Source of the DNA: Actinomycetes bacterium
GTDB lineage: Bacteria; Actinomycetota; Acidimicrobiia; Acidimicrobiales; Acidimicrobiaceae
Assembly (NCBI GenBank): GCA_021785005.1
Contig: JAJYGT010000171.1
Coordinates: forward strand, 1-36,654
DNA length: 36,654 nucleotides
Reading direction: 5' to 3'
Shown piece by piece: positions 1,582-28,775 of this stretch. The translations under genes and the position numbers were made by a program. A model generated the notes under the pieces. It was not told the DNA's origin, ran no database searches, and saw nothing but the letters and a program-made list of their open reading frames with translations. Numbering within the stretch: position 1 is the first letter of the stretch; each line of letters starts with the position of its first letter.

Positions 1582-4296
1582 ATGAGTCTTTTATCAAAAG
1601 TATTACGCGCCGGAGAAGGAAAAAAGGTACGTCGCCTGTCCGATATCGTACCTTCCATCAACGAACTTGACGGCGAATACGCGTCCTATTCTGATGCCGA
1701 ACTTCGTGCCAAGACTGACCAATTCAAATCTCGAATCGCCCAAGGCGAAACGCTCGATGACATTTTGGTTGAAGCTTTTGCGACTGTGCGCGAAGCAGCG
1801 TTTAGAACGATTGGCCAACGTCACTATGACGTCCAATTGATGGGTGGGATGGCGTTAAATTTCGGATGGATTGCTGAAATGAAAACCGGTGAAGGTAAGA
1901 CGTTGGTCTCAACGCTACCGGTTTACTTAAACGCGCTAGCTGGGCGGGGCGTGCATGTCGTGACAGTCAACGACTACCTTGCCCAACGCGACTCTAGTTG
2001 GATGGGAAGGATTTATGAGTTCTTAGGGCTAAGCGTCGGCTTGGTGCTGCCTGGAGTAGAAGATCCCGTTGAACGACGTGCTGCGTATGCTTGTGACGTC
2101 ACCTACGGTACCAATACCGAATTTGGCTTTGACTATTTGCGTGACAATATGGCGAAAAATGCAGAAGAAATTGTGCAGCGAGGTCACAGCTTTGCGATTG
2201 TTGACGAAGTGGACTCGATCTTGATTGACGAGGCGCGAACCCCGCTCATTATTGCAGGTCCGACAGGCCAACCGCCAAAGATTTATTACGATTTTGCATC
2301 CATCGCTAGGACATTGCGCCCGATTGTTGATTACGAAGTTGACGAAGAGAAAAAGATTGTTTATCCAACTGAAGATGGTATTGACAAAGTTGAAGCGGCG
2401 CTTTCCATTGAGAACCTGTTCGATCCTAGTTCGACACACCTCTTGCATCAATTGAACCAGGCTCTGCGTGCCAAAGAGCTTTTCAAGCGCGATAAGGACT
2501 ATATCGTAGATCGTGGCGAGGTGAAAATCGTCGACGAATTTACCGATCGAATCTTAGAAGGACGGCGCTGGTCTGAAGGTCTACATCAAGCTGTAGAAGC
2601 CAAGGAACGAGTTCGTATCAAAGAGGAAAATCACACCTGGGCCACCGTCACCTTGCAGAATTATTTCAGAATGTATGAAAAATTGGCAGGTATGACGGGT
2701 ACTGCCGAAACTGAAGCTGCCGAATTTGCCTCAACGTATCACCTGCCGGTGGTTCCGATTCCCACGAACGTCGCGCTAGCTAGAGATGACAAAGCTGATC
2801 TGGTTTATAAGACAGAAGCAACGAAATTCGAGGCTGTGGTTGAAGAAATTGCGGAACGTTATGAGATCGGTCAGCCTGTTTTAGTTGGTACTGCTTCAGT
2901 TGCAAAGTCAGAAGTTCTTAGCAAGCTCCTCCACGCGAGAGGTATCAACCACCAGCTTTTAAACGCTAAGCATCACGCGATTGAGGCGCAAATTGTGGCT
3001 CAGGCCGGACGCCTAAAGGCGGTAACCGTGGCTACCAATATGGCGGGTCGTGGCGTGGATATTTTGCTTGGTGGTAATCCAGAAGGTCTTGCAGATTTCG
3101 AACTAACCGCGAGGGGTATTTCTTCTGATGATCAAGATTACCAAAATGTACGAAGTGAATTGATCGCTAAGTTTAAAGAGCAGTGTGCCCAGGAGGCAAT
3201 CGCGGTGCGTGAACTAGGCGGCCTTTACGTTCTAGGTTCGGAGCGTCACGAGTCACGGCGAATTGACAACCAACTTCGGGGTCGTTCTGGTCGTCAGGGG
3301 GATCCAGGTGAGAGCCGGTTCTTTTTATCCTTAGAAGACGATTTGATGAGAATATTTGCCACGGGTGCAGTTTCATCCATTCTTGAGCGCACGTTTCCCG
3401 ATGACTTACCCATTGAAAACAAGATGGTATCTAGAGCTATTGAAAAGGCTCAGAACACCGTTGAAGGACGAAACGCAGAAATCAGAAAAGAAGTTCTCAA
3501 GTACGATGAAGTGTTGAATGAGCAGCGAAAGGTCATTTATGAACTTCGAAGGGCGGTTCTCGACGGTCGTGATCTGCAAGAGCACACGATTGAAGTACTT
3601 GATTCGGTCCTGGACCGGATTATTGACGAGAATTGTAAGGGTGACTTTATCGAGAGCTATGATCTTGCACGAGTACTAACCGAGGTTGGCCAAGTCTTCC
3701 CGACAGAGTTTGATGTCGATGAGTTGAAAAATGCTGAATCGAAGGATCATATATTTGAAAGTCTTCGAGCTGAAGCGATCGCATATTATAGCCAACGCGA
3801 AGCCTTGGTCCCTGGCGGATCTGAAACCATGCGTGCTGTAGAACGTGAAGTGATGCTTAGTGTTCTGGACACCAAATGGCGGGAACACTTAGCTGAGATG
3901 GATTATCTCAGAGAAGGCATTAACTTGCGTGCTATGGGGCAACAAGATCCTTTGGTAGCGTGGCAGCGCGAAGGATTTGCGATGTTTTCCACTTTGGTCG
4001 ACCAAATCGATGAGGAGTACCTTCGCTTCATAATGCGAGTTGAAGTTGTGAACCAACAACAGCCAACGCTTTCCCCTGGTACTGATCTGGCTCAAGCCTT
4101 TTACCAAAGTGCTCAAAGTGAAGTTGCTGATTTAGCTTCCGATGCTTTACCTATTACATCTGGGTTGGCGGCCTTTGATCTGGTTCCGACTGAGACAGAA
4201 AATGACCCAGCCATCAAAAAGCTGGGAAGAAACGATAAGTGCTGGTGCGGGAGCGGACGTAAGTTCAAGCACTGCCATGGAGCTCAAAGCGACTAG
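1582..4296 (+). CDS. secA: preprotein translocase ATPase SecA
   Basis: SecA is the cytosolic motor ATPase that pushes unfolded preproteins through the SecYEG channel. The 904-residue length is typical of the family. Residues 100-107 are the Walker A motif [18 protein letters not shown] follows near 128-137, and the DEAD-type Walker B ([14 protein letters not shown]) sits around 208-221. The second helicase domain carries [16 protein letters not shown] near 485-500 and an arginine-rich [13 protein letters not shown] stretch around 570. The C-terminal SEC-C zinc motif is intact: C887, C889, C898 and H899. The ATG at 1582 gives the family N-terminus (MSLLSKVLR...). It is followed 75 bases later by prfB in the same direction; secA-prfB adjacency is common in bacteria. 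No accessory-SecA2 features are seen, so this should be the housekeeping copy. Confidence 0.98.
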
Positions 4297-4371
4297 GTTG
4301 TATCAAGTACTTTAGCGTGCCATTAGTCGCGCCTTAACAATCGTCGACGTCTAGCTGGGTGGTTTAGCTAC

Positions 4372-5478
4372 TTGCGATCATATTCGGACGAGCTTGAAGC
4401 TCTCATTAAGAGAGTTGAAGAAGCCAAGATTTATTTGAAGTTAAGCCCTAGTTTGGTTCGCATAGCCGAATTGGAGCCGATAGTTTCGTCTGCCGATCTT
4501 TGGAACGATGCCGATTCAGCTAGGAATATTACGTCAGAATATAACAGATTGATAGCGGATCGTGACACGATTGCGTCCACGGAAAAAGCACTAGACGACC
4601 TTCGAGCCCTTGAGGAATTGCTTTCCGAAGAGGATGATGAGAATTTGAACGCCGAGCGAGAGTCAAACTTGGCTAACCTCAACCAGCGGCTTGGCGAAAT
4701 TGAGCTACGCGCGCTGTTTTCAGGTGAAGACGATGAGAGCGACGCAATTTTAGAAATTAAGCCTCGCGCAGGAGGTACTGACGCCCAGGATTGGGCCGAA
4801 ATGGTGCTGCGTATGTATAGCAGATGGGCTGAATCGAGCAAGTTTGATCTCGAGATTGATGACATCTCGCAGGGTCAAGAGGCTGGTATCTTGTCGGCGA
4901 CCTTAATTGTGAAGGGTCGCTACGCGTATGGTATGCTCCAAGGCGAGCGCGGCGTACATCGTTTAGTTAGGATGTCACCGTTTAACTCAAAGCATTCGAG
5001 GGAGACTTCTTTTGCTTTAGTTCAAGTTTTTCCCTTGACCCAAGCCGCTACTGAGGTACACATAGATGAGAAAGACCTAAGAATTGACACGTTTCGTTCT
5101 TCCGGTGCTGGTGGCCAGCATGTGAACGTGACGGACTCAGCTGTTCGTATTACGCACCTACCTACTTCTACTGTGGTGTCTTGTCAAAATGAACGATCTC
5201 AGCACCAAAATAAGGCGCGAGCTTTACAGATACTGGCGGCCAAGTTACTTGATTTAGAAAAAGAGCAAGCACGACAGACGCGGGAAGTGTTGGCTGGGAA
5301 TAGTACTGAAATGAGCTGGGGAAATCAGATTCGGTCGTATGTTTTAGCACCGTATCAGCTTGTCAAGGATTTGAGAACACAAGTCGAAACTGGGAATGTT
5401 GATGCTGTACTTGATGGCGAAATTACATTTTTTATGGAGTCCTACTTGCGCTGGGCTAAGAGCAATTCGAAATCGTAG
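4372..5478 (+). CDS. prfB: peptide chain release factor 2 (RF2)
   Basis: RF2 recognises UGA and UAA stop codons and triggers peptide release. The protein (368 residues) has the SPF anticodon-like tripeptide in RMSPFNSKHSRETSF (near residue 204), which marks RF2 rather than RF1, and the catalytic GGQ loop in SGAGGQHVNVTDSAVR (near 243-258). The start is a TTG at 4372 with a weak GGGTGG 9-10 bases upstream; it gives an N-terminus that matches the usual RF2 length. The frame is open back to a TAG at 4324 with no better start. There is no in-frame UGA near codon 25, so the autoregulatory +1 frameshift found in many bacterial prfB genes is absent. The gene lies upstream of ftsE-ftsX, the usual actinobacterial order. 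Confidence 0.96.
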   Translation: MRSYSDELEALIKRVEEAKIYLKLSPSLVRIAELEPIVSSADLWNDADSARNITSEYNRLIADRDTIASTEKALDDLRALEELLSEEDDENLNAERESNLANLNQRLGEIELRALFSGEDDESDAILEIKPRAGGTDAQDWAEMVLRMYSRWAESSKFDLEIDDISQGQEAGILSATLIVKGRYAYGMLQGERGVHRLVRMSPFNSKHSRETSFALVQVFPLTQAATEVHIDEKDLRIDTFRSSGAGGQHVNVTDSAVRITHLPTSTVVSCQNERSQHQNKARALQILAAKLLDLEKEQARQTREVLAGNSTEMSWGNQIRSYVLAPYQLVKDLRTQVETGNVDAVLDGEITFFMESYLRWAKSNSKS

Positions 5479-5528
5479 TTTTTGATATTTAGATTGATGA
5501 AAATAGTCAAAGGATTTAGGTAATCTGC

Positions 5529-6224
5529 GTGATCAAAGTAGATCGAGTTACAAAATCGTATAAGACCGGACAGTACGCCCTTCGCGACTGCTCATTGTCT
5601 ATCCAACGCGGAGAATTCGTTTTCTTAGTTGGTCCGTCTGGGTCCGGTAAGTCTTCCCTCTTGCGCCTGATGCTACGTGAAGATCGACCCGACGTTGGGC
5701 ACGTATTTGTGGCAGGTAAAGATTTGGGGGCAATGCCCGATTGGAAGGTGCCATTTTTTAGGCGTAATATAGGAGCAATATTCCAAGACTTTAGATTGCT
5801 TCCCAACAAGACGGTCGCTGAAAACGTTTCATTTGCTCTTGAAGTAACCGGTAAGTCGAAGAAGTTAATTGCTACACAGGTTCCACAGATGCTTGAGTTG
5901 GTCGGTTTGGCTGATAAGGCAACTAGGTTACCTACGGAGCTATCTGGTGGAGAGCAGCAAAGGGTTGCCATAGCCCGCGCTTTTATTAATAAGCCGTTGA
6001 TCCTGTTGGCGGACGAGCCCACAGGTAATCTTGATCCAGAGACGTCCTGGGGTGTTATGCGGCTTCTGGAACGAATCAATCGAACCGGCACGACGGTACT
6101 CATGGCTACACATGATGTCGGAATTGTCGATTCGATGCGACGTCGAGTTATTGAACTCGACAAAGGTGTCATTACAAGAGATCAGGTTCGTGGCGTGTAT
6201 GGCATCGGCTCTGAAGCTCAATAG
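5529..6224 (+). CDS. ftsE: cell division ATP-binding protein FtsE
   Basis: FtsE is the cytoplasmic ATPase of the FtsEX complex, which couples the divisome to extracellular peptidoglycan hydrolases. At 231 residues it has the normal size. The ABC motifs are complete: Walker A GPSGSGKS (35-42), Q-loop in FQDFRLLP (about 84), signature LSGGEQQR (138-145), Walker B with D162-E163 in [11 protein letters not shown], and the H-loop ATHD near 195. The GTG start at 5529 has AGGT 7 bases upstream. The 3' end lies 44 bases before the preferred ftsX start, so the two are co-transcribed. Confidence 0.97.
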
Positions 6225-6268
6225 CCAAGAGTCATTGTTTGCAAAATAAAACCTGGGAGGGATTTGAT

Positions 6269-7156
6269 TTGGCATTTTCAGTAGATTATGTAGTGAGAGA
6301 GACAGCGTCGAATTTGTGGCGCAACAGGCTCATGAGTTTGGCCGCAGTACTAACAATTGCTGTCTCTCTGGCGCTCGTAGGATCAGCCCTCTTAATTAAG
6401 CAGGGTGTTACCGTAGCTACATCGCAATGGCAAGGTGGTACGCAACTCTTAATATTTATGGAACCAAATGCGTCCGCGGCGCAAACAGCGGCGATTGCTG
6501 ATCAGCTAAAAGCTACGTCGGCGGTAAAGAGCTTTTTCTATGTAAATCAGGCTCAGTCCTATGTTGAGTTCAGGCGACTTGAGGCAAATCAGCCGGATTT
6601 CTTATCGTCTGTTACACAAAACGACATCCCTCCTTCTTATCGAGTTTCACTTGTTGATCCGGCGGAAGCTCCTGCGGTCGGTCAGATATTCAATCAACAA
6701 GTGGGAGTTAGGAACGTTGTCTTCAATCGCGCTGCGATTGACACGATGTTAAAAATTTCCTCAATCGCCCAGCTAGTAATTCTCGGGTTGGCTACGATAC
6801 TGTTACTTTCAGCGTCAGTACTTATTTTAAATGTTATCCGCGTGGCAATTTTTTCTCGACGACGAGAGGTTATGGTGATGAAGCTCGTTGGCGCTACCAA
6901 CTGGTTTATCCGCGTGCCTTTTATGTTAGAAGGTCTGATACAAGGGCTTTCAGGAGCTGCGGTTGCCGCCTTAGCAGTTATCGGGGTGCGTTCACTCTTT
7001 GGATATATTATCCACCATTACAACGTGCAGCTTCTTTCCTCTTTTGTACTTACGACTCATGACTTAGTTATGACTGAGCTTTTTGTATTGGCTATTGGTA
7101 CCATAGTTGGTGCAACCGGTTCGTTGTTAGCTGTCCGCCGCTATTTAGGTGTCTAA
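6269..7156 (+). CDS. ftsX: cell division membrane protein FtsX
   Basis: FtsX is the membrane partner of FtsE. The frame can also start at a TTG at 6239, but GGGAGG at 6255-6260 sits 8 bases before the TTG at 6269, and this start gives the family N-terminus (M-AFSVDYVVRETASNLWRN). I therefore prefer 295 residues. One membrane segment follows at about 23-45. A large external domain comes next (about 50-160), rich in Gln and Ala as usual, and then three C-terminal membrane segments with the FtsX/MacB pattern (SRRREVMVMKLVGATNWFI near 196-214). In other actinobacteria a secreted M23-type hydrolase and smpB often follow; here two small exported proteins do. Confidence 0.95.
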   Translation: MAFSVDYVVRETASNLWRNRLMSLAAVLTIAVSLALVGSALLIKQGVTVATSQWQGGTQLLIFMEPNASAAQTAAIADQLKATSAVKSFFYVNQAQSYVEFRRLEANQPDFLSSVTQNDIPPSYRVSLVDPAEAPAVGQIFNQQVGVRNVVFNRAAIDTMLKISSIAQLVILGLATILLLSASVLILNVIRVAIFSRRREVMVMKLVGATNWFIRVPFMLEGLIQGLSGAAVAALAVIGVRSLFGYIIHHYNVQLLSSFVLTTHDLVMTELFVLAIGTIVGATGSLLAVRRYLGV

Positions 7157-7322
7157 CACGGTCTTTTGCTGTTCAAGATACGGGAATCGCAGGGGAATTT
7201 TTTGTCTGTGCTGGTGAACCTAACAAATTCATAATCAATTAAACGCTTTCTTTTTATAATCGATCACGACTCTATTACTAGCCATACACCCACTTGGTGA
7301 AATGTGCATGATAGGAGTGACC

Positions 7323-7685
7323 ATGAAAATTAAGAGAAGGTCGAAAATCTTTGCAGTCGGAATGGGACTGTCGTCCGTGTTGCTTGGCGCGTGTTCGGCT
7401 ACTAGCTCAATCGCGCCGACAGCGGCCTCTGCTGGGACATCAGCTAACACTGCGAACCCATCAATCGTTAACCAAAGCGCACCAAATGCGTCGGTTGCGA
7501 ATACTTCTGTGGCCTCAACTACGAGTTCCACGACAACAACGTCAGCAAATGTCGTCGCGTCACAGGCAACAACCGTAACGGTTCCCCAAAGCAGCGTTGC
7601 GTCGATTGACTCTCAACTGAGCGCGCTAAGCGCCACTGTAAACCAAGGCAATTCCGACCTAAGTACCGCCGGAGGTTCTAACTAA
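7323..7685 (+). CDS. small Ser/Thr/Ala-rich lipoprotein
   Basis: The predicted product has 120 residues. It begins with a basic n-region (MKIKRRSK), a hydrophobic stretch and the lipobox LLGAC, so C24 would be lipidated and the protein held on the outer face of the membrane. The rest is low-complexity and rich in Ser, Thr, Ala and Asn up to a short C-terminal segment (ASIDSQLSALSATVNQ), which resembles tails seen in small actinobacterial exported proteins. The ATG at 7323 is chosen over the ATG at 7302 because AGGAG (7313-7317) is 5 bases away and the signal peptide then starts correctly. TATAAT at 7255-7260 may be a -10 box. The next gene follows after 1 base. Function unknown. Confidence 0.8.
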   Translation: MKIKRRSKIFAVGMGLSSVLLGACSATSSIAPTAASAGTSANTANPSIVNQSAPNASVANTSVASTTSSTTTTSANVVASQATTVTVPQSSVASIDSQLSALSATVNQGNSDLSTAGGSN

Positions 7686-7686
7686 A

Positions 7687-8385
7687 ATGAAGATTAAGAA
7701 TAAATCAGCTCTAGCTGTAGCGGCCGTCGTTCCGCTATTTTTGGGATCGACGGCCGGCGCGACGAGCTTGCCAAACAATCTCGCGCAATCCCAAGCGATT
7801 GCCCAGATACAAATATCTAACCGAATTACCAGACTTGACAATCTCACAAACCGCGTGAACATATCACTTACTATTACGGCCTCTGATCGGTCAGCTTTGC
7901 TAGCGATTTATGGCAATTCCTCAACGGGCGATATCGCCGATCTAAATGCGTTGTCCGCGAAAGTCGCGACCGAGACCACTGTTTCGGGGGTTCAGACAGA
8001 TCTTCATACGTTATATTCGACGTATCGAATTTACGCAGTTGTTGCTCCACAGTCAGACCTCGTTTTGGCAGCCGATACAGAGACTTCTGTGATAAATGTG
8101 ATGACTGGTTTAGAACCAGGACTGAGCGCAATTATTAAATCTGGAGGATCGACATCAGCTGCAACCGCTGATTACAACCAGTACCTCGCAGATATTTCGG
8201 CGGCTCAAACCGATGTTGGATCTATTTCTAGTCAAGCTCTTGGCTTGACTCCAGCTCTGTTCAATCAGGATAGAAGTGGTACCATAACTCTAATACAGTC
8301 GGATTGGAAGTCGATAAAAGCGGGACAAGCGTCACTGCTGGCGGCTCGAGCTGAGATCGATGCGATCATTACGTCAGCAGGTTAA
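7687..8385 (+). CDS. secreted helical protein, actinobacterial hypothetical family
   Basis: This 232-residue protein starts with a Sec signal peptide (MKIKNKSALAVAAVVPLFLG, likely cleaved after an Ala near 25). The mature part is predicted all-helical from its heptad-like pattern, with segments such as ASDRSALLAIYG and a YRIYAVVAPQSDLVLAAD stretch. I recall these from a widespread, uncharacterised actinobacterial secreted family. The start has GGAGG at 7671-7675 and lies one base after the stop of the lipoprotein gene, so the two are one operon. Its place directly behind ftsEX, where an FtsX-controlled hydrolase or its partner would be expected, is suggestive only; no hydrolase motif (LytM, NlpC/P60) is visible. 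Confidence 0.8.
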   Translation: MKIKNKSALAVAAVVPLFLGSTAGATSLPNNLAQSQAIAQIQISNRITRLDNLTNRVNISLTITASDRSALLAIYGNSSTGDIADLNALSAKVATETTVSGVQTDLHTLYSTYRIYAVVAPQSDLVLAADTETSVINVMTGLEPGLSAIIKSGGSTSAATADYNQYLADISAAQTDVGSISSQALGLTPALFNQDRSGTITLIQSDWKSIKAGQASLLAARAEIDAIITSAG

Positions 8386-8538
8386 ATACCTGTGTGGAGC
8401 GACAGGCTCGCCTAGGCAAAATCGGCACGAAAGCTAATTATATCAATTTGACGTGATTCGCATGAAGGAAGTTGCTAGCTGACTTTGTGCGGATCACTGC
8501 CAATTTTAAAGGTTTTGCGACCTTATTAGAGGTGCAAT

Positions 8539-9291
8539 TTAGTGATGGAAAATAGCACGGCGGTCAATTAAAGCGCAATTATCCTTTGAACGATGGTCGG
8601 CTTGAAGGGGATTGTTTTGCCGCGCGGCCGTGTCGTAGCGATCCAAGACCAAATTTGTAATTATTGAGCTATTTCCCAGAGGGCCCGCAATCCAAGTTGC
8701 ACCGCAAGAGGAAATAGCAGATTGAAAGCGACCAGGACTCAAAAGATATGACGATACTGCGGTGGTTTTTTTCTCGCAGGCCGCTAAAACGTCAGAGAAT
8801 TTAGGTGTCGCAGATCCCATAAAGCCCACCAATACTGGAACATTTCGAAGACGTGATAGTTGCTCAGCCACCTTTTTTACGTCTCCATTACTTGAGGCGT
8901 CCTTGGATCCAGCTGCAGCCAGAATAATGTTTGCATGTTCGGGGGCTTTTGCCTGTCTAAGTCGCAAGTCGAGTAGCTGAACCAGGCTCGGATCTGGTCC
9001 AAGAGGCTTTGCGGCTGTCAATTTATTTTTAAAGGCTTGTTCATACACGTCGTGGGAAAGATGTAGTCCATGGGTCAGTAGTAACGGAACGACCACCGCA
9101 TCAGTGGCAACCTGAGAGGCAAGTTGGGAATATTGTGGTTCGCGTAATTCAAGATACGACGTATATACCAAGAGGTTGGGTCTGATCGTTCGTAATAGGT
9201 ACGCAAGGTGTTCAACGGAGTATTTGCTTTGATCTAGGCGGCTTCCATGTGCCACGAGAACTAGTGGTCGGTTTGAATTTGCACTATTCAT
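8539..9291 (-). CDS. sirohydrochlorin chelatase, CbiX/SirB type
   Basis: This enzyme class inserts Fe2+ (or Co2+) into sirohydrochlorin; here iron, giving siroheme for the nitrite reductase of the same operon, is the logical product. The 250-residue protein opens with the CbiX motif PLVLVAHGSR and carries the second histidine motif LLLTHGLHLSHDV near residue 97, with a C-terminal half of the same fold (VPVLVGFMGS, AGPLGNSSIITNLV). The ATG at 9291 overlaps the end of the upstream HemD/regulator gene by 8 bases; an upstream ATG at 9330 would give 13 more residues and a 47-base overlap and has no ribosome binding site. It is the last gene of the nitrate operon. Confidence 0.88.
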   Translation of the reverse strand: MNSANSNRPLVLVAHGSRLDQSKYSVEHLAYLLRTIRPNLLVYTSYLELREPQYSQLASQVATDAVVVPLLLTHGLHLSHDVYEQAFKNKLTAAKPLGPDPSLVQLLDLRLRQAKAPEHANIILAAAGSKDASSNGDVKKVAEQLSRLRNVPVLVGFMGSATPKFSDVLAACEKKTTAVSSYLLSPGRFQSAISSCGATWIAGPLGNSSIITNLVLDRYDTAARQNNPLQADHRSKDNCALIDRRAIFHH

Positions 9292-10591
9292 TCTTGATCC
9301 AGCCTTGGCCGATTTTAGAATCTCTATCATTTGGATGACTACCGACTTGGTTTGCTTGCTCTACTTTTACCTGTGACTCAGATTGGTTCGCAGTCTGTAA
9401 ACCAACCCTACGGTGTTGGGGTTGAACTGAATCCTTGCCCATAACCCTCGATCCGGCATATGAGTCACACCGAAGGCGATATCCGCGTTTTACGACCGTT
9501 TGGATGATATTTGGCTCGTCAAGTAGCATTCGTAGCCGAGCGACGGCCATTTCCACTGCGTGCAATCCGCCGTCGTGATTGCCTACGCAGTGCTTTAGCT
9601 CTAATCGAGAAAAAACCTTTCCAGGGTCTTGTGCCAATGCTCTAAGAAGAACCATTGGCATCGGAGGAAGCTCTACCAGTTGATCATCGATTATCACCGC
9701 ATGACCTCGTACTTCAAGGTGCCTACCTGCGGCGACTAGGTTTTTGCTGGTTCGTTTTGGGACCTCTTCGGCAACGGTACGAATCAGCGAACCTAGCCGA
9801 GATCTAGGAGGTAGCACGCTTGGAATGCCGATTCGATCCAGGGGTGCCGAACAAACTGGACCCACGCAAATCGGAATTACGTCATTGAGCATAGCATTTA
9901 TAAGAGGACCCTCGAGACCACTTGATCGGGCAACTTCTAGCAGACCAACGACTGCTGGTGCACTAGTGAATGTGATCGCGTCAATTTGTTTATTTATTGT
10001 GGCTTCAACTAAAGTTCTTACGGCATTTAGGTCATCAGGCGGAACCCATCGATAAACTGGCACGGTAACTACTGTCGCACCTGCGCCTTGTAGGGAGGCG
10101 ACAACGTCGTGCGAAGGCTCACCGTGCAACTGTACCGCTATTCGTTTCCCGCTGATATTTTGTGATCGTAAATGTTCGATGACCTCGCTCATGGATTCAG
10201 AACCAGGTGTCCAGATCTCGGACAGGCCCGATGCTCGGATCGCACCCCGTGCTTTGGGGCCTCGTGCTACTATCTGCGATTTAGATAAGCTGTGACGCAA
10301 GCTTTCGCCAAGACCCCATTCGTCTGCTGCCTCCATCCATCCGCGAAATCCTATTCCCGTGGTGCCTACCACGTAGTCCGAATGAGTTTCTATGCATGTT
10401 ATGGTGGCGCGGTATAGCTCTTCGTCTCGGGCTAATGGCATAATTTGTAGGGTGGAAGCAACCACTACTTTTGCGCCACGTTTTTCGAACGCGGTGCGCA
10501 GTTCTTCTCGTCGTCGCGATGCGGTCACCGCAATGGTGTACCCGCGCAAAGGAATTTCTTGTTCCTCGGTCAATCTAATTTCTTCGGTCAT
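9284..10591 (-). CDS. uroporphyrinogen-III synthase domain fused to OmpR-type winged helix
   Basis: Of 435 residues, about 17-275 form a HemD-like domain (start TIAVTASRRREEL, then IVARGPKARGAIRASGL, AITFTSAPAVVGLLEVA and ICVGPVCSAPL). About 295-375 form a Trans_reg_C winged helix (ending IIQTVVKRGYRLRC). The tail of about 60 residues is hydrophilic. Mycobacteria have the same fusion (Rv0260c, from memory), also next to a CbiX-like gene and near nitrite reductase and narK genes. The role may be regulatory: sensing a tetrapyrrole or nitrogen state and controlling nitrate assimilation, rather than or in addition to making uroporphyrinogen III. The ATG overlaps the nirBD stop by 4 bases (10588-10591). 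Confidence 0.9.
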   Translation of the reverse strand: MTEEIRLTEEQEIPLRGYTIAVTASRRREELRTAFEKRGAKVVVASTLQIMPLARDEELYRATITCIETHSDYVVGTTGIGFRGWMEAADEWGLGESLRHSLSKSQIVARGPKARGAIRASGLSEIWTPGSESMSEVIEHLRSQNISGKRIAVQLHGEPSHDVVASLQGAGATVVTVPVYRWVPPDDLNAVRTLVEATINKQIDAITFTSAPAVVGLLEVARSSGLEGPLINAMLNDVIPICVGPVCSAPLDRIGIPSVLPPRSRLGSLIRTVAEEVPKRTSKNLVAAGRHLEVRGHAVIIDDQLVELPPMPMVLLRALAQDPGKVFSRLELKHCVGNHDGGLHAVEMAVARLRMLLDEPNIIQTVVKRGYRLRCDSYAGSRVMGKDSVQPQHRRVGLQTANQSESQVKVEQANQVGSHPNDRDSKIGQGWIKNE

Positions 10592-13449
10592 GCATTGATC
10601 TCTACTTGGCCGTCACGTACTCTTACCGAATGAATTCCTATGGATACTGTGTCGTCTTCGATACAAACTCCACTTTGTAGATCGAAGGAATGTCTGTACA
10701 TCGGAGAAATAATTACTGGTTTATCAGCCTTGCTGCCTATTAATCCCCTGGCTAAAACATTTGCGCCACTAAAGGGATCAAAGTTTTGTACCGCATATAT
10801 CTCTCCGTCGGTGTGCATTACAACGGCAATCTGATATCCATTTACAATGGCGGCGTGAGGTCTGTCGGGCTGCAAGTCATCCTGGTGGCAAACCGGTGTC
10901 CATTGCGTAATTGGATGCTTGGACACCTTAGGGTTCGCACGGCGTGACAATTTAACCTCGACAGGTTTTATTTGATCGCGTTCTGTTACAAATTCAATAA
11001 GTGGATCTGCTTTATTGGGTTCGTTGATAAAAGAAGAAAAGTATTGTCGTTTTGCTGGATCGTCTAATACAAGTTTCCATTCGTCTGCGTAGTTGCTAAC
11101 GTGGCGTTCGACGAGAGATTCCAGTTCATGGGATAAGCCGAGACTATCTTGTATAACAACTTCTTTTACGTGGTCGAGTCCGCCATCTAGTGATTCGATC
11201 CACGGCGCAGTGCGTTGCAGACGATCAGCTGTTCGTATGTAGTACATGAGAAATCGATCTATGTAACGAACCAGTGTTTCGTTATCTAGGTCGCTTGCTA
11301 GCAATTCGGCATGCCGTGGCGTAAAGCCTCCGTTGCCGCCGACGTACAAGTTCCAGCCGCGATCCGTTGCGATAACGCCCACATCCTTGCCACGTGCTTC
11401 GGCACATTCTCTTGCACATCCCGAGACACCGAATTTCAGTTTATGGGGAGATCGTAGACCCCTATAACGGAGTTCAAGCTGGATCGCCATGCCAACAGAG
11501 TCTTGCACCCCATATCGGCACCAGGTAGAGCCAACACACGACTTTACTGTTCTTACTGCTTTCCCATAAGCATGTCCTGATTCAAAGCCTGCTTGAATTA
11601 AGCGTTCCCAGACATGTGGCAACTGCTCAACCCGTGCTCCTAACAGGTCGATTCGCTGGGCTCCTGTTATCTTTGTGTAGAGATTGAAGTCTTTGGCAAT
11701 TTGGCCAATCGCGATAAGTCCTTCCGGTGTGACTTCGCCACCTGGAATCCGTGGGACTACCGAATAGGTGCCATTTCTCTGAATATTGGCAAGTAAATGA
11801 TCGTTTGTATCTTGTATGCTCGCGTGCTCGCTCTCGAGTGGGTGTGATCCAAAGGTACTCGCCAAAATCGATGCGATCGCTGGTTTGCATAGGTCACATC
11901 CGCGCCCAGCACCATGCTTTTCGATTAACAAGCTAAAGGTTTTAATGCCTTCTACTCGAACTAAATCGCTAAGTTCTTGGCGCGAGTAATTGAAGTGCTC
12001 GCAAAGGGCTTTGGAGATTTCTTTACCAGTTGCTAGCAGTTCCTGTTTGAGGATATCTTTAACTAAAGGGAGGCAGCTCCCGCAACCTGAACCAGCTTTA
12101 GTCATGGATTTTATTGTGCTAATTTCGCACGCGCCATCTTGTGCAATGCATTGTCGGATCGAACCTGCATCTACGTTGTGACAGGAACAAACATTGGCAT
12201 TATCGGGTAAGGATTTAGCACCGATTGGAGCTGCATTTTGAGGCATGAGGTATTGTTCGGGGTCAGCATCAAGCGATTTGTCTGATGCGGCAATTGACCT
12301 CAACAGCGCATAGTTGGTAGCATCTCCGACCATGATTCCACCTCGGAGCTGTTTTGCGTCGTCGCTCAAGACCAGCTTTTTGTAAATGCCACGAATATGG
12401 TCAACAAAAACTACGTCAAGGGATCCCGGGCTAGCGCCAAACGCGTCACCAAAGGTAGCGACTTCGACTCCCAGAAGCTTTAGCTTTGTAGATGTATCGC
12501 CAGATGCGAAATGCTCACGCTCTCCCGATAGATTCTTAGCGACGATTTCTGCCATAGCATATCCCGGTGCGACCAGTCCGTAGGTCTTATCATCAATCGA
12601 AGCGCATTCTCCAATCGCATAGATTTTTTCATCACATGATTGACACATTGAGTTGACAGCAATTCCCCCACGAGCTCCAATGGCAAGCCCCGACGCGCTA
12701 GCTAACGAATGGTCTGGACGAACACCCGTAGCGAATACGACTACCTGAGTTTCAATAGATTGTCCGTCTGATAGGGTGACGCCAGATACATGTCCTGTGG
12801 TGTCGGTCTCAATTTTTGCGATGCTGGTGCTCAGATGTAATTTGAATCCGAGTGCATCTACATGTCGACGTAAGACGTGCCCACCTGCTTCATCCACCTG
12901 AAGCGACATAAGTCGTGGCGAAAGTTCCACAATATGAGTCATAAGCCCTAAAGTGCTAAGAACGTCAGCTGCTTCCAAGCCGAGGAGTCCACCTCCTACG
13001 ACAATTCCAGTAGAACAGGTAGCCAAAGAAATTCGGCTTTTCAAGGCGTCTAAATCTTCAAAAGTTCGATATACGAAGCAACCAATACTGTTTGATCCCG
13101 GGATCGGTGGTACGAATGGTCTAGAACCTGTTGCAAGAATAAGGCGGTCATAATCGAATAGCTCTCCCGCCTTGGTAACGACTTGTTGTTTATCGCGCTC
13201 TATGCGAATGACAGGGTCGTTGCGTAAATATTGAAAATCGCGATAGAAATCTTCATCACATAAATAAAGCGCTTTAGCGTCGTTTGTGCGCGAGTACGAA
13301 CTTAGAGCAACTCTGTCGTACGCCAAATGTGGTTCAGCGCCAATTACCGTAATGTCAAATTGATCGCGTAGGTCGTATTTCTTTGTCTGCTCTAAAAATT
13401 TATGGCCGACCATTCCATTTCCAATTAGTACTAGCTTTTGTTTTTTCAT
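10588..13449 (-). CDS. nirB: assimilatory nitrite reductase, NirB and NirD fused
   Basis: The protein reduces nitrite to ammonium with NAD(P)H. In 953 residues it shows, in order: an FAD/NAD(P)H reductase with GNGMVG (10-15), LATGSRP and GGGLLGLEAAD; a BFD-type [2Fe-2S] domain with CSCHN near 417 and GSGCGSC; a second, more degenerate BFD-like repeat; and the siroheme/4Fe-4S reductase. The cofactor cysteines are SCVGSTWC (about 634) and SGCARECAE (about 672). From about 846 to the end it carries the NirD Rieske-like small subunit (ITQWTPV... to the C-terminus), which lacks the Rieske Cys/His ligands, as NirD does. I choose the ATG at 13449 because AGGAG lies 7 bases upstream; an in-frame start at 13518 lacks this support. 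The gene overlaps the HemD/regulator gene by 4 bases. Confidence 0.95.
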   Translation of the reverse strand: MKKQKLVLIGNGMVGHKFLEQTKKYDLRDQFDITVIGAEPHLAYDRVALSSYSRTNDAKALYLCDEDFYRDFQYLRNDPVIRIERDKQQVVTKAGELFDYDRLILATGSRPFVPPIPGSNSIGCFVYRTFEDLDALKSRISLATCSTGIVVGGGLLGLEAADVLSTLGLMTHIVELSPRLMSLQVDEAGGHVLRRHVDALGFKLHLSTSIAKIETDTTGHVSGVTLSDGQSIETQVVVFATGVRPDHSLASASGLAIGARGGIAVNSMCQSCDEKIYAIGECASIDDKTYGLVAPGYAMAEIVAKNLSGEREHFASGDTSTKLKLLGVEVATFGDAFGASPGSLDVVFVDHIRGIYKKLVLSDDAKQLRGGIMVGDATNYALLRSIAASDKSLDADPEQYLMPQNAAPIGAKSLPDNANVCSCHNVDAGSIRQCIAQDGACEISTIKSMTKAGSGCGSCLPLVKDILKQELLATGKEISKALCEHFNYSRQELSDLVRVEGIKTFSLLIEKHGAGRGCDLCKPAIASILASTFGSHPLESEHASIQDTNDHLLANIQRNGTYSVVPRIPGGEVTPEGLIAIGQIAKDFNLYTKITGAQRIDLLGARVEQLPHVWERLIQAGFESGHAYGKAVRTVKSCVGSTWCRYGVQDSVGMAIQLELRYRGLRSPHKLKFGVSGCARECAEARGKDVGVIATDRGWNLYVGGNGGFTPRHAELLASDLDNETLVRYIDRFLMYYIRTADRLQRTAPWIESLDGGLDHVKEVVIQDSLGLSHELESLVERHVSNYADEWKLVLDDPAKRQYFSSFINEPNKADPLIEFVTERDQIKPVEVKLSRRANPKVSKHPITQWTPVCHQDDLQPDRPHAAIVNGYQIAVVMHTDGEIYAVQNFDPFSGANVLARGLIGSKADKPVIISPMYRHSFDLQSGVCIEDDTVSIGIHSVRVRDGQVEINA

Positions 13450-23273: not shown

Positions 23274-23298
23274 ACCAATTATCTAATTGGTCAGACCA
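23274..23298. promoter_or_regulatory. composite FadR/GntR-type operator
   Basis: A perfect 18-base palindrome, ACCAATTA-TC-TAATTGGT (23274-23291), overlaps a second perfect palindrome, TGGTC-A-GACCA (23288-23298). The half-sites AATTGGT and ACCA match those bound by FadR-subfamily GntR proteins (PdhR, LldR and FadR types). It lies 139 bases upstream of the operon whose last gene is a GntR/FCD regulator, which makes autoregulation likely. Confidence 0.6.
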
Positions 23299-23436
23299 CT
23301 CGGGTTACAGAACATTCATTTCGAAGAAACTAGACCGAAATATGGCTCAGGTAGCTTCTGATGGTGGAATAGTAGTCAGTTGCTGATTAACTGCTAGTCC
23401 AAGCTGGGGAAGGAATAACTAAAATGAGGTTCAGTA

Positions 23437-24837
23437 ATGGCTGAAGGCAATATTACAGTATTCAAAAGACAATTAAATTTACCGGAAACGGTTGCGATGT
23501 CAGTTGCCCTGATGGCTCCTACGACAGGAATGGTGTTTGTTACACCACTTCTGGCAAGTGCAGCGGGATATAACGTTCCCCTGGCATTTGTCGTTTCATT
23601 GGTAGGCATACTGATCATCGGTTTTTCGTTTGGTCGACTAGCACGAAAGTATGCACATGCCGGTTCAGCGTATGGTTTGACCAAAGATACACTTGGTCCT
23701 CGTACTGGCTTATTAGCTGGGTGGGGGTTGATGTTCACGTACACTTTGTTGATCGCCGCACTTCTGGCTGGAACTGGCGCGTTTGCTCAGTTAACTCTTC
23801 TGGAGTTTTTTCACATAAACGCGCCATGGGGATTGTTTGCATTGTTGGGCGCTGGCATAGTATTGATGCTGGCCATTCACAATATCAGACCTTCGATGCG
23901 TCTAATGCTTGTACTGGAGGCCATAAGTATGGCGGCGGTTGTCGTAGTTTGTGTACTCATTATTGGTCACTCGCACCTGACTGCCTCTACATCGGTAAAA
24001 CCATTTATCTTGAACAATCGCGGCATGTCGGGAATTGCTCATGCACTCGTGTTCGGGTTGACAAGCTTTTTGGGATTTGAAGGGTCTGCTACCCTTGGCG
24101 AGGAGTCAAAAGATCCTAAGCGAATGGTTAGGATCGCGATCATTGTAAGCGCCCTAGTAGGTGGCCTCTTTTTTGTGTTTGTTTCCTATAGCCAAACAGT
24201 CGGTTTCGGTTTATCCGCAAAGGGAGTTGCTGATTTCTCAAGTCAACTCACTCCTTTCAATACATTGACTGAGCGATTCCTAAATACTAACTTTGCTGCG
24301 GTAATCAACCTAGGTGCTGCTATTAGCTTTTTCTCGTGTGCATTAGCTGCGGTAAATGCCGGCTCCCACATTCTCTTTGCACTTTCTAGAGACGGGTATG
24401 TACCTCAAACTTTAGGCACCTTGGACGAGCACTCGAATGTACCGAGGAGAGCAATTGCGGTCGTATTTCCGGTCGGTCTCGCTTTGCTTGGGCTTGGGTG
24501 GATACTTTGGACATCGCCGGTGACCGTTATAGGTAACTTGAGCGGATTGGGAACCTTTGGCGCTTTAGTATCGTACGGCTTGGTAGTGGTGGGATCATTG
24601 CGATCGTACTGGCTGTCTGATGTTGCTGAACGGAAGTTTCACGTGATAATACTGCAGATACTTGGGCTTGGCGTTCTATTTTACGTACTGTATGGAAATA
24701 TCTACCCAGTACCACCGTCGCCGGTCAATTTGTTTCCCTATATTACACTTGCGTATTTCTTAGCAACCATGTCGTTTTCGCTCTACTATAAGCAGCGACG
24801 CGAAGTTCCTGTTGTTTCAGTTGAGGCAGCAGCATAA
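23437..24837 (+). CDS. APC-superfamily amino acid/amine permease
   Basis: This is an inner-membrane transporter of 466 residues with about twelve hydrophobic segments. The first carries the APC-like motif PTTGMVFVTPLLASAAGY (about 28-45). HAGSAYGLTKDTLGPRTG (about 74-91) and FLGFEGSATLGEESKDPKR (about 213-231) are characteristic of the amino acid/polyamine/organocation superfamily. The ATG at 23437 has GAGGT six bases upstream. As first gene of the operon, it should import the substrate of the downstream amidase and deacetylase-like hydrolase. The substrate cannot be read from the sequence. Confidence 0.88.
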   Translation: MAEGNITVFKRQLNLPETVAMSVALMAPTTGMVFVTPLLASAAGYNVPLAFVVSLVGILIIGFSFGRLARKYAHAGSAYGLTKDTLGPRTGLLAGWGLMFTYTLLIAALLAGTGAFAQLTLLEFFHINAPWGLFALLGAGIVLMLAIHNIRPSMRLMLVLEAISMAAVVVVCVLIIGHSHLTASTSVKPFILNNRGMSGIAHALVFGLTSFLGFEGSATLGEESKDPKRMVRIAIIVSALVGGLFFVFVSYSQTVGFGLSAKGVADFSSQLTPFNTLTERFLNTNFAAVINLGAAISFFSCALAAVNAGSHILFALSRDGYVPQTLGTLDEHSNVPRRAIAVVFPVGLALLGLGWILWTSPVTVIGNLSGLGTFGALVSYGLVVVGSLRSYWLSDVAERKFHVIILQILGLGVLFYVLYGNIYPVPPSPVNLFPYITLAYFLATMSFSLYYKQRREVPVVSVEAAA

Positions 24838-24854
24838 AACAACCTGAATTCGGC

Positions 24855-24900
24855 CCGCGGAAAGATCTTTGTTATCGAATATGGCTGAGAATTTCCGCGG
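24855..24900. repeat. perfect 9-base inverted repeat between permease and amidase genes
   Basis: Arms CCGCGGAAA (24855-24863) and TTTCCGCGG (24892-24900) enclose 28 bases; the left arm also begins a 10-base palindrome, AAAGATCTTT (24861-24870). No T run follows, so it is not a standard terminator. An RNA processing or attenuation role between permease and enzymes is possible. Confidence 0.6.
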
Positions 24901-24964
24901 ACAATAAAGAATGTACGAATGTCATACTTACAACAAGCCAGTTAAGAAACGAGAAGTTTAAGAC

Positions 24965-25897
24965 GTGTCGATAATTACAACCAAGGCCCATTTGGGTAGA
25001 GAAACAGCTCATCATTTTTGGGATCGGGAAAATGTCCCTGCTCTGCATGTTGAACCGGGGGAGGAATTTAGTTTAGAGTTGCGCGATGGTTCTAATGGTC
25101 AGATTACACCTACGACAACCGCGGGCGATTTGGTAAGTTTAGATTTTCAACAAATGGATCCACTTACTGGTCCCATATGGGTTGAAGGTGCGCGACCAGG
25201 GGACGCTTTATGCGTTGAAATCCTTGACATTTCACTGGCTAAATGGGGATGGTCGGCTATCATTCCAGGTTTTGGGCTTTTGAGCGACTACTTCCCCGAC
25301 CCGGTCGTGCGTGGTTGGGATTTAACATCGGGATTTTTTGAGCTAGTGAATGCAGCTCGATTTGAGTTGAGCCCGATGTTGGGCGTGATGGGAGTGGCGC
25401 CAAAAGAAAATGGCAATTATTCCTCGGTTGTCCCCACAAATGCAGGCGGTAACATCGACGTCAAATATCTTCAGGCTGGAAGTCGGATTTATCTGCCGGT
25501 TTTTAATGACGGAGCATTGTTATCGGCAGGAGATGCGCACGCACTCCAAGGCGACGGCGAATTGAGCGGCACAGCGATTGAGTGCGAGGCGGATGTGGTT
25601 ATTCGCGTTACATTGGCACCATCGATGGATTTGGTAGCGCCTTTCATAGACACTATTGAAGTAAAAGACCCATTGAAAACTAGTTATCGCACGTTTTTAG
25701 GCGTAGGACCAGATCTGTTTGAGGCAGCACGACAGGCAAGTTTGAGAGCGGTGGATGGAGTGGCGAAAGCTCTTGGGGTTGACGCGAGTGAAGCGTACAT
25801 TCTTCTCGGTACGATCGCGGAACTTAGGATCCATGAAATCGTCGATCGACCGAACTGGGTAGTGGGTTGCATGGTTCCAAGTTCTGTATTCAAGTGA
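24965..25897 (+). CDS. acetamidase/formamidase family amidohydrolase
   Basis: The 310-residue protein belongs to the FmdA/AmdA family of metal-dependent amidases, which release ammonia from short amides. Supporting motifs are [20 protein letters not shown] (near 55-74), [15 protein letters not shown] (near 157-171), and [18 protein letters not shown] (near 191-208), which holds the usual Asp/His pair. The start is a GTG at 24965 with only a weak purine stretch upstream. Its TGA overlaps the preferred GTG of the next gene by 4 bases, so the two are translationally coupled. In context, a half-amide or simple amide made by the downstream hydrolase is the likely substrate. Confidence 0.88.
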
Positions 25898-26790
25898 AAG
25901 AGATAAACGTTTGTATTGGCGTTGACGTTGATGCTGTTGCGGGTTGGCTGGGATCCTATGGAGGCCAGGACTCTCCAAATGATATTCAACGTGGAATGTT
26001 CGCAGGTGAGGTTGGTACTCCTCGGTTGTTGAATTTGTTTTCGAAACTAGAAATACCGACAACTTGGTTTATTCCTGGACATTCAATTGAGACGTTTCCA
26101 ACACAAATGCAACAAGTAGTCGACTGCGGGCATGAAGTTGGAGCACACGGTTATTCACATGAAAATCCTGTTCTTCTTAGTCCAGCGCAGGAAGAAGATA
26201 TTCTGGGTCGCTCGATAGAGCTTGTCGTAAAGTTGAGTGGAGAAAAACCTCGAGGATATGTTGCGCCTTGGTGGGAGATGTCCGAGCGAACAGCACACCT
26301 GCTAATGAAGAACGGTTTTTCCTACGATCATTCGCAGAACTACGACGATTTTGTTCCGTTCTATGCGCGCGTGGGCGATACTTGGACAAATATTGATTAT
26401 GACCAGCCGGCTTCTTCGTGGATGACTCCCCTGGTGCGAGGACCGTCGATAGATTTAGTTGAATTTTGCGGCAACTGGTACCTTGACGATTTACCACCGA
26501 TGATGTTTATAAAGCAAGCTCCCAACAGCCATGGATTTGTAAACCCGAGAGACTTAGAAGTTATGTGGCGTGATCAATTCGATTGGGTTTATCGTGAAAT
26601 GGACTATGCAGTATTTCCTATTACGCTTCATCCAGACGTGAGTGGCAGACCTCAAGTACTTTTAATGTTGGAGCGGTTCATTAAATACATATCCAGTCAC
26701 TCGAATGTAACTTTTTCTAAATTTGAAACCGTGGCGCGGGACTTTAGGTTGAAGTTTCCATTTAGCAATATCGCGGGGATTGAACTCTGA
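25894..26790 (+). CDS. polysaccharide-deacetylase-like hydrolase, PuuE/cyclic imidase type
   Basis: The 298-residue protein has a NodB-homology (CE4) fold. D11/D13 lie in [22 protein letters not shown] is near 56-69, and the metal-binding [13 protein letters not shown] gives H85 and H89. The TWFIPGH and [12 protein letters not shown] pattern resembles the PuuE-type allantoinase/cyclic imide hydrolase branch rather than cell-wall deacetylases. There is no signal peptide, so it is cytosolic and unlikely to act on peptidoglycan. The GTG at 25894 forms a GTGA overlap with the amidase stop and is preferred to an upstream TTG at 25867. In this operon it could open a cyclic imide or amide ring to a half-amide for the amidase. 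Confidence 0.82.
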
Positions 26791-27972
26791 GTGTCGCATA
26801 ATCCATACAAGATTGGAATGCTTGTTCCGTCGTCAAATACCGTTTTAGAACCCGAACTAGCACGCTTGGTGCATGATTTGTCGGGTACGACAATCTTTGT
26901 AACGCGAGTACAAGTTACAAGAATCGGTATTGATCAAAGGGCATGCGATCAGTTCGATCCCAATTCCATGGCAGCCGCGGCGCGTTTGGTTGGTGACGCC
27001 AAAGTTGACGTTGTGGTTTGGGCAGGAACGTCTGGCTCGTGGATGGGACGAAAACAAGATGAAGTAATTGTGCAATTGTTAGGTGATGTTACTGGCGTCT
27101 ATGCCACCACCTCAACACTTTCGATGACACTTGCCTGCAGCGCGTTTCGAGTGAAACAAGTAGCGCTTTTTACGCCATATACCCATGATATCGTAGAGTT
27201 GATTTCCCAGAATTTGGAAAAAGCCGGGATAAGTGTCGTTGCAGTTGAAAACCTAGACATCTCTGACAACTACTCGTTTGCTGAGGTGGATCCTGCTTTG
27301 CTTAAGACCTTGTTGAAAAGAGCAAGCACGGTCGAAGGTGTGCAAGCAGTGCTGGTCATGTGTACAAACTTGAGAACGACACCATTTTTAGCAGAACTAG
27401 AAAATGAGCTGGGCGTTTTGATCCTAGATAGCGTTTTAGCTACACTATGGGGTGCCCATGAAGCTGCCCAACGACCAATCGCGTTCAGGGGTGAGGGCAT
27501 GTTGCTCTCCCAGGGGTCAATACGATTGCAAATATTGCAAGTTATTCGAGACCTAATTTTGCGGAAGCAGCTTTTAAGCGTCGGAGTTTACGTCCAATTG
27601 CCGGGTGGCGATCCAATGGTCGATGTCATTGTCTTGGAGGAATTTTTGGATGAATCAACCGGCAAGGCCGTTTTATCGAAGAGGGTTACATCTTGCCGTG
27701 AATGGCTTAGTGTGACCAGCGAGACATTTGGTGTTTCTATTGACGCCTTACTTGATTCGTCACTTACCGAACCGATTCATCATTTAGGCGAAGTCTTGTT
27801 TCCTATTCTAGAAAATGGCACGACCCTTGGGTGGTGGGTGCTTCGCAGCGAAGGGCATCTTATGAATGGCGCAGATGACATTTTGTTTTACACCCGAGCT
27901 AGCAAGAAAGTAGTGGAAGCTGTAAATTTGCTTCAGCCAGCCCGGGCATTGTCGAACCTATTGAAGGACTGA
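26791..27972 (+). CDS. Asp/Glu racemase superfamily enzyme (maleate isomerase/AMDase-like) with extra C-terminal domain
   Basis: Residues 1-245 resemble maleate cis-trans isomerases and arylmalonate decarboxylases: IGMLVPSSNTVLEPEL at the start, WAGTSGSW (77-84), FTPYTHD (127-133) and VMCTNLRTTPF (189-199). The first catalytic position, usually Cys in isomerases and racemases, is Gly (G79-T80-S81), while C191 and Y130 are kept. This is the arylmalonate decarboxylase pattern of one cysteine. Residues of about 250-393 form a second domain whose pattern (YVQLPGGDPMVDVIVLEEF..., LGEVLFPILENGTTLGWWVL) suggests a GAF-like sensor fold. The GTG start directly follows the previous stop. Possible product steps are maleate to fumarate, or a malonate-type decarboxylation. 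Confidence 0.75.
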   Translation: MSHNPYKIGMLVPSSNTVLEPELARLVHDLSGTTIFVTRVQVTRIGIDQRACDQFDPNSMAAAARLVGDAKVDVVVWAGTSGSWMGRKQDEVIVQLLGDVTGVYATTSTLSMTLACSAFRVKQVALFTPYTHDIVELISQNLEKAGISVVAVENLDISDNYSFAEVDPALLKTLLKRASTVEGVQAVLVMCTNLRTTPFLAELENELGVLILDSVLATLWGAHEAAQRPIAFRGEGMLLSQGSIRLQILQVIRDLILRKQLLSVGVYVQLPGGDPMVDVIVLEEFLDESTGKAVLSKRVTSCREWLSVTSETFGVSIDALLDSSLTEPIHHLGEVLFPILENGTTLGWWVLRSEGHLMNGADDILFYTRASKKVVEAVNLLQPARALSNLLKD

Positions 27973-27977
27973 GATAT

Positions 27978-28775
27978 ATGGAGTTAGGTCCAGAAAGAAC
28001 TGCGACTAAGCGGGGTGAACGACGGTATCTATTTGTAGCAGAAGAGATACTGCGAGCTGTTGCGTTGGGAAATTTGACAGTCGGAGACCGACTACCAGAC
28101 GAAAGAGCTTTAGCAGAAGCTTGCAAGGTGGGTCGTTCAACCGTGCGAGAAGCGATATTGGCTCTCGAGTTAGCTGGAGTGGTCGAGGTCAGACAGGGTG
28201 CGGGCTGTTATTTGATTGGAAGTGGGATGGTAGATGGGGCCGGCCTTAAAGTCCGTACCGATGCGTTGCCCAAGCAAATGCTCGAAGTCCGACAGTTGCT
28301 CGAGCCAGAAGCCGCCCGTCTTTGCGCGCTGTATATCACGGCTCAAGAGCTTGATCACTTACAAAAACTTCTAGACGATGCGGAAAAGGCGAGCAAAGAA
28401 CTGTCTGCTGAGAGTCATGAAAGGTTCTTAGCGTTAAACCTTAGTTTTCATCGCGATTTGAGCCGAGCGTGCGGGAACCAGGTCTTATATGATACCGTAA
28501 GTCAAATGGTCAACTCGGAAAACCATCCGCTCTGGGCGTTGGTAGATACCATGGTAGTTCGTAGCGCGGATGTTCGACAACAACAGGTACTTGAACATCA
28601 AGCTATTCTTTCGGCGATCGCGAGTGGCCAGCACGATAAAGCAAGAGAGGCGATGGAGATTCATCTAGAGGCGCTAAAAGGACGAATCTTTGGCTCAGAG
28701 AGACCGCGGACCCGTGTGGTTCGTACCATGCGTCATCCTACGAAGTTGGCGCCAAACAATCAATCTAAGACGTAA
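27978..28775 (+). CDS. GntR-family regulator, FadR subfamily with FCD domain
   Basis: An N-terminal winged helix (about 10-75) contains LPDERALAEACKVGRSTVREAILALELAGVVEVRQGAG, the standard GntR recognition unit written across residues 32-70. A helical FCD ligand domain follows (about 95-225), with FHRDLSRACGNQVLYD and HQAILSAIASGQHDKAREAM holding its metal/ligand-type histidines. Length is 265 residues. The ATG at 27978 follows the racemase-like gene by 5 bases, with GAAGGA 9 bases upstream. As last gene of the operon it most likely senses a pathway acid and acts on the TGGTCAGACCA-type palindrome upstream of the permease. Confidence 0.92.
   Translation: MELGPERTATKRGERRYLFVAEEILRAVALGNLTVGDRLPDERALAEACKVGRSTVREAILALELAGVVEVRQGAGCYLIGSGMVDGAGLKVRTDALPKQMLEVRQLLEPEAARLCALYITAQELDHLQKLLDDAEKASKELSAESHERFLALNLSFHRDLSRACGNQVLYDTVSQMVNSENHPLWALVDTMVVRSADVRQQQVLEHQAILSAIASGQHDKAREAMEIHLEALKGRIFGSERPRTRVVRTMRHPTKLAPNNQSKT

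Follow-up and report, generated by a model that had tools for sequence, protein, structure and literature searches.

Which protein reads the overlapping palindromes that precede a five-gene operon in a bacterium of the family Acidimicrobiaceae, and which genes does it control? The window, meaning the whole stretch of DNA analysed (36,654 nucleotides), carries at positions 23274-23298 the 25 bases ACCAATTATCTAATTGGTCAGACCA, which the original prediction described as an overlapping double palindrome likely bound by the FCD regulator encoded at the end of the operon. Judging from sequence comparison, the segment 23285-23301 is very probably the operator of this FCD-type GntR regulator (27978-28775), from which a dimer would repress the five-gene operon until released by a metabolite. 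The features concerned are the following.

23274..23281 (+): extra half-site, ACCAATTA, an 8-bp perfect mirror of TAATTGGT at 23284-23291; not conserved
23285..23301 (+): candidate conserved operator, AATTGGTCAGACCACTC, with core TGGT-CAG-ACCA at 23288-23298 and centre at 23293; recurs beside homologous regulators and fits the FadR-subfamily consensus
23437..24837 (+): amino-acid/amine permease of the APC superfamily, first gene of the operon (Pfam AA_permease/AA_permease_2)
24965..25897 (+): acetamidase/formamidase-family amidase (Pfam FmdA_AmdA, 3.4e-54)
~25885..26790 (+): polysaccharide-deacetylase-fold hydrolase, kin of PuuE allantoinase (Pfam Polysacc_deac_1; PDB 3qbu, 5.6e-135)
26791..27972 (+): arylmalonate decarboxylase (AMDase)/maleate isomerase/EutA-like enzyme with an extra C-terminal region (Pfam Amdase, 3.4e-21; PDB 4fq7, 1.8e-13)
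27978..28775 (+): GntR regulator of the FadR subfamily (winged HTH plus FCD), proposed operator binder (Pfam GntR, 1.8e-17; FCD, 1.9e-24)

The palindromic site and its rarity

The arrangement is present exactly as described: a perfect 8+8 inverted repeat (ACCAATTA at 23274-23281, TC at 23282-23283, TAATTGGT at 23284-23291) is overlapped on its right arm by TGGT-CAG-ACCA, equivalent to TGGTC-A-GACCA, at 23288-23298. Both palindromes lie about 140 bases 5' of the permease ATG, inside a 760-bp intergenic region, and a sigma-70-like promoter could not be made out in their surroundings. The supposed likeness to FadR-subfamily operators also holds, the core fitting the published consensus of that subfamily, the palindrome TKGT-N3-ACMA with its 3-nt spacing (PMC4494728), and the regulator gene is indeed the last of the operon, being the final gene of a co-directional run from 23437 to 28775.

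Perfect 8-bp inverted repeats with a spacer of 0-4 are not rare by themselves (5 in the window versus 3.0 expected from shuffles), whereas TGGTN3ACCA is the rarer pattern, occurring twice versus 0.37 expected, its second copy lying at 23673 within the permease gene. In dinucleotide shuffles, the overlapping pair turned up 0 times out of 200 for the whole window and once out of 5000 for the intergenic region of 760 bp, in agreement with the earlier view that three half-sites in 25 bases are unlikely to be a chance product, these figures concerning a pattern picked after the fact, for which conservation is the independent evidence. Across its own genome, ACCAATTANNTAATTGGT with zero mismatches is found solely at 23274-23298, while ATTGGTYNGACCR has two copies in the 2.6-Mb assembly, the second of them set in an open reading frame between unlike flanks and probably a chance occurrence. 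A wider regulon within this genome was considered and set aside: TGGTCNGACCA is present at 5 places versus 4 for a reversed-pattern control, and the four remaining places are all inside open reading frames as called, so that we claim no further targets there.

The regulator at the end of the operon

The protein encoded at 27978-28775 combines an N-terminal GntR winged helix-turn-helix (PF00392, 63.2 bits against a cut-off of 27) with a C-terminal all-helical FCD effector domain (PF07729, 86.9 bits against 24.3), and its relatives in the PDB are 6az6, 2di3, PdhR and NanR. At the metal-site positions of the FCD domain (Asp/His/His/His), the three histidines are conserved as His158, His207 and His229, and the first position is occupied by Asn154, with Ser, Gly or Asp in relatives. 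The helix-turn-helix sequence is close to that of relatives having the same site. A search with the regulator through an even draw of the phylum (E<=1e-45) returned its own genome only, and among viral contigs one distant relative was matched.

Recurrence beside homologous regulators

Homologous regulators were gathered by searching whole genomes and by scanning 85,000 species genomes, and a matrix was built from 5 sites, namely those of the window, of a paralogous regulator in the same genome and of three order-level relatives. On held-out loci it reached 14.9-25 bits, against second-order Markov shuffles whose mean maximum was about 7-11 and whose largest values were 13-18. The high scorers were Actinacidiphila oryziradicis, Actinacidiphila soli, Nocardioides acrostichi, Gordonia hankookensis and metagenome-assembled genomes (MAGs) from Subtercola, Acidobacteriota and Actinomycetes, with the Subtercola MAG scoring lowest (14.9; its own largest shuffle, 13.3). 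The core ATTGGTCNGACCR was found at 11 of 25 near loci (regulators of 36-51% identity), a count that includes near-duplicate assemblies and stands for about 7 independent lineages, versus 1 of 55 loci with distant regulators; two more near loci carry it with a single substitution in the spacer (L031, TGGTTAGACCA; L048, TGGTAAGACCA). In each of three genomes sampled from the order (G036, G083, G125), ATTGGTYNGACCR occurs once genome-wide, always beside the regulator, and at L013, L014 and L018 the site lies 5' of transporter genes near the regulator.

Conservation before orthologous operons had been named beforehand as a check on the prediction, and it was found: the five genes are all present, in unchanged order, at the locus of Actinacidiphila oryziradicis (L033), with identities of 61% for the permease, 63% for the formamidase-like protein, 74% for the deacetylase, 36% for the AMDase-like protein and 50% for the GntR regulator, and a pair of GAATTGGTCAGACCG copies, separated by 88 bp, lies 5' of the permease. 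The alignment of 14 sites gives AATTGGTCAGACC(G/A)CTT, in which TGGT and ACC are invariant. Because related regulators elsewhere are accompanied by this same site, we read the site in the window as the very probable docking site of the regulator at the operon's end.

Near the regulator of Aciditerrimonas ferrireducens (L042/L016; 46% identical) no recognisable site was present, and the two genome-wide motif matches of this species are both away from the regulator. The homologue of a Mycobacterium MAG (51%) had no match in a 3-kb contig that begins inside the deacetylase gene and thus excludes the operon promoter. Inspection by eye showed a diverged form, AGAGGTCTAACCTCT, at the start codon of the regulator gene itself in Pseudonocardia (homologues of 36-43%), and in Alphaproteobacteria (homologues of ~31-36%) it showed TTGGTYNGACCAA-like pairs, spaced about 31 bp, that lie roughly 3 kb upstream of the regulator. 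In Pseudonocardia and related loci (L044-L051, L058; positions ~7950-8000), AGAGGTCTAACCTCT sits just 5' of the apparent start codon and another site, resembling GGTCNGACCA, follows immediately 3' of it, about 23 bp from the first, an arrangement in which autoregulation over a leaderless start is possible.

One palindrome or two, and which regulator

The proposal that the FCD regulator binds here is supported after one correction: the right-hand palindrome is conserved but the double palindrome, with its third half-site, is not seen elsewhere. None of the 13 other sites compared has ACCAATTA next to it, and ACCAAT stands at that place in 0 of 13. The left palindrome was set aside as the operator because its arm is not conserved, and two coequal operators are unsupported, only the right-hand palindrome being conserved.

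Both palindromes could in principle function if two dimers, or a dimer and an extra subunit, bound the three half-sites cooperatively. This reading draws on the perfect 8-bp match of the ACCAATTA arm to the reverse half-site, on the rarity of the overlap under shuffling, on the weaker half-site that often flanks FadR-subfamily sites 7-12 nt from the centre (PMC4494728), and on the two full sites often present in homologous operons, spaced 88 bp in Actinacidiphila, ~23 bp in Pseudonocardia and ~31 bp in Proteobacteria. However, besides the arm being missing at all other sites compared, its ACCA is 16-19 nt away from the centre of the core at 23293, outside the published range, and the halves of ACCA-N10-TGGT point away from each other, unlike those of a FadR operator, so that we consider cooperative binding unlikely. 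The arm ACCAATTA may offer a weak hold on an additional subunit or be there by chance.

Control by another FCD regulator of the same genome, in trans or jointly with the operon's own, is improbable. The main candidate is the paralog C18, which is 46% identical, has a similar recognition helix and carries at its locus (L018) a similar site, the perfect version AAGTGGTTCGACCACTT; yet this site differs from that of the window in spacer and flank, and the orthologous Actinacidiphila operon has a linked regulator together with the same AATTGGTCAGACC sequence. The paralog locus also contains an FCD-domain fragment with an in-frame TAG (G000:C18:6396-6497; L018 6396-6497), adjoining the paralog operator at 6573; the fragment is apparently a decayed relic of a further regulator copy. 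Readings of the site as a hairpin or terminator in RNA, or as a palindrome that arose by chance and has no regulatory role, are very hard to credit even with perfect 8-bp inverted repeats being common in the window, as no terminator-like site was found in the region and the conservation of the core contradicts a chance repeat, which would not recur beside homologous regulators.

Operon genes and likely substrate

The gene content suggests that the operon serves to import a small amide and hydrolyse it. Its deacetylase-fold protein is very close to Helicobacter pylori HP0310 (3qbu; 453 bits), for which the authors of the structure reported no activity on polysaccharide substrates, proposed a small-molecule substrate and described a relationship to PuuE allantoinase (PMC3084791). 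HP0310 carries the name peptidoglycan deacetylase. Judged by its gene neighbourhoods in the window and at L014, L033 and L037, the deacetylase-fold protein would have a small cyclic amide or ureide, not peptidoglycan, as its substrate. The PDB entry matched by the 26791-27972 protein, 4fq7, is a maleate isomerase; among 395 genomes of the class, no ortholog of this protein was found besides that of its own genome.

At L014, an operon-like run 3' of the site (1697-11863) encodes an NMT1-type ABC transporter, a uricase-family protein, a malate synthase, a deacetylase homologue (HP0310-like, 73%), an AMDase homologue, a fumarylacetoacetate-hydrolase-family protein and an AtzD/TrzD-family ring-opening hydrolase. 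This content favours the breakdown of a cyclic amide, imide or ureide without naming the exact compound, and the substrate of the window's operon is probably a small molecule of one of these three kinds. At the Actinacidiphila soli locus (L034, 5132-5928), the match to the permease breaks off at residue 241 and that to the formamidase picks up again at residue 287, a pattern suggestive of a deletion that fused the two genes. None of the papers searched linked the regulator with cyanuric-acid, barbiturate or hydantoin genes, and the set of controlled genes appears to be undescribed.

Proposed mode of action

FadR-subfamily proteins act as dimers on such palindromes, and a small carboxylate or related ligand alters their binding (PMC4494728). 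In the window, a regulator dimer would place one winged helix on each half of the site, TGGT and ACCA, across the 3-bp spacer. Sitting at 23285-23301, roughly 140 bp 5' of the permease ATG, it would repress the operon of permease, amidase, deacetylase, AMDase and regulator, until a small metabolite of the substrate pathway bound the FCD domain and released the repressor, inducing the operon and, with it, the regulator itself. The operator assignment is built on the sequence of the site and how rare it is, on its repeated presence next to homologous regulators and upstream of an orthologous operon, and on the domains of the regulator. From these we infer binding, repression and not activation, autoregulation and a small organic ligand. 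Repression relieved by a pathway metabolite, autoregulation included, is the most likely mode of action, and the ligand probably derives from the breakdown of a cyclic amide, imide or ureide.

Comparison with known systems

A guess made from sequence alone has become a testable regulator-operator pair, and ATTGGTYNGACCR provides a short search pattern, nearly unique per genome, that leads to genes of one catabolic theme and helps to assign a function to an operon whose 'deacetylase' annotation fits poorly. Tentatively, and with somewhat more doubt than confidence, we propose that AATTGGTCNGACCRCTT and its FCD regulator define an undescribed regulon of actinobacterial lineages and an Acidobacteriota MAG, devoted to the breakdown of small cyclic amides, imides or ureides and having an HP0310-like hydrolase as its core enzyme; if true, this suggests that the "peptidoglycan deacetylase" enzymes named after HP0310 would act on small molecules.

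The operator type itself is well known. NanR is likewise an FCD-GntR regulator with more than two half-sites, its operator consisting of direct repeats of GGTATA that take up three dimers, whereas the window has an inverted-repeat core (PMC8012715). The additional half-sites of the GntR family resemble the window in that one more half-site accompanies a palindrome of the FadR type, but lie at 7-12 nt (PMC4494728), while the extra half of the window lies at 16-19 nt and is unconserved in homologous loci. Closest in form are the operators of FadR, PdhR, LldR and GlcC, which have a 3-nt spacer (PMC4494728), share with the window the TGGT-N3-ACCA core and an A/T-rich flank on one side, and likewise stand before an operon containing the regulator; unlike these, the window site has group-specific flanks and spacer and is asymmetric (AATTGGTCAGACC(G/A)CTT), and the genes under its presumed control are different ones.
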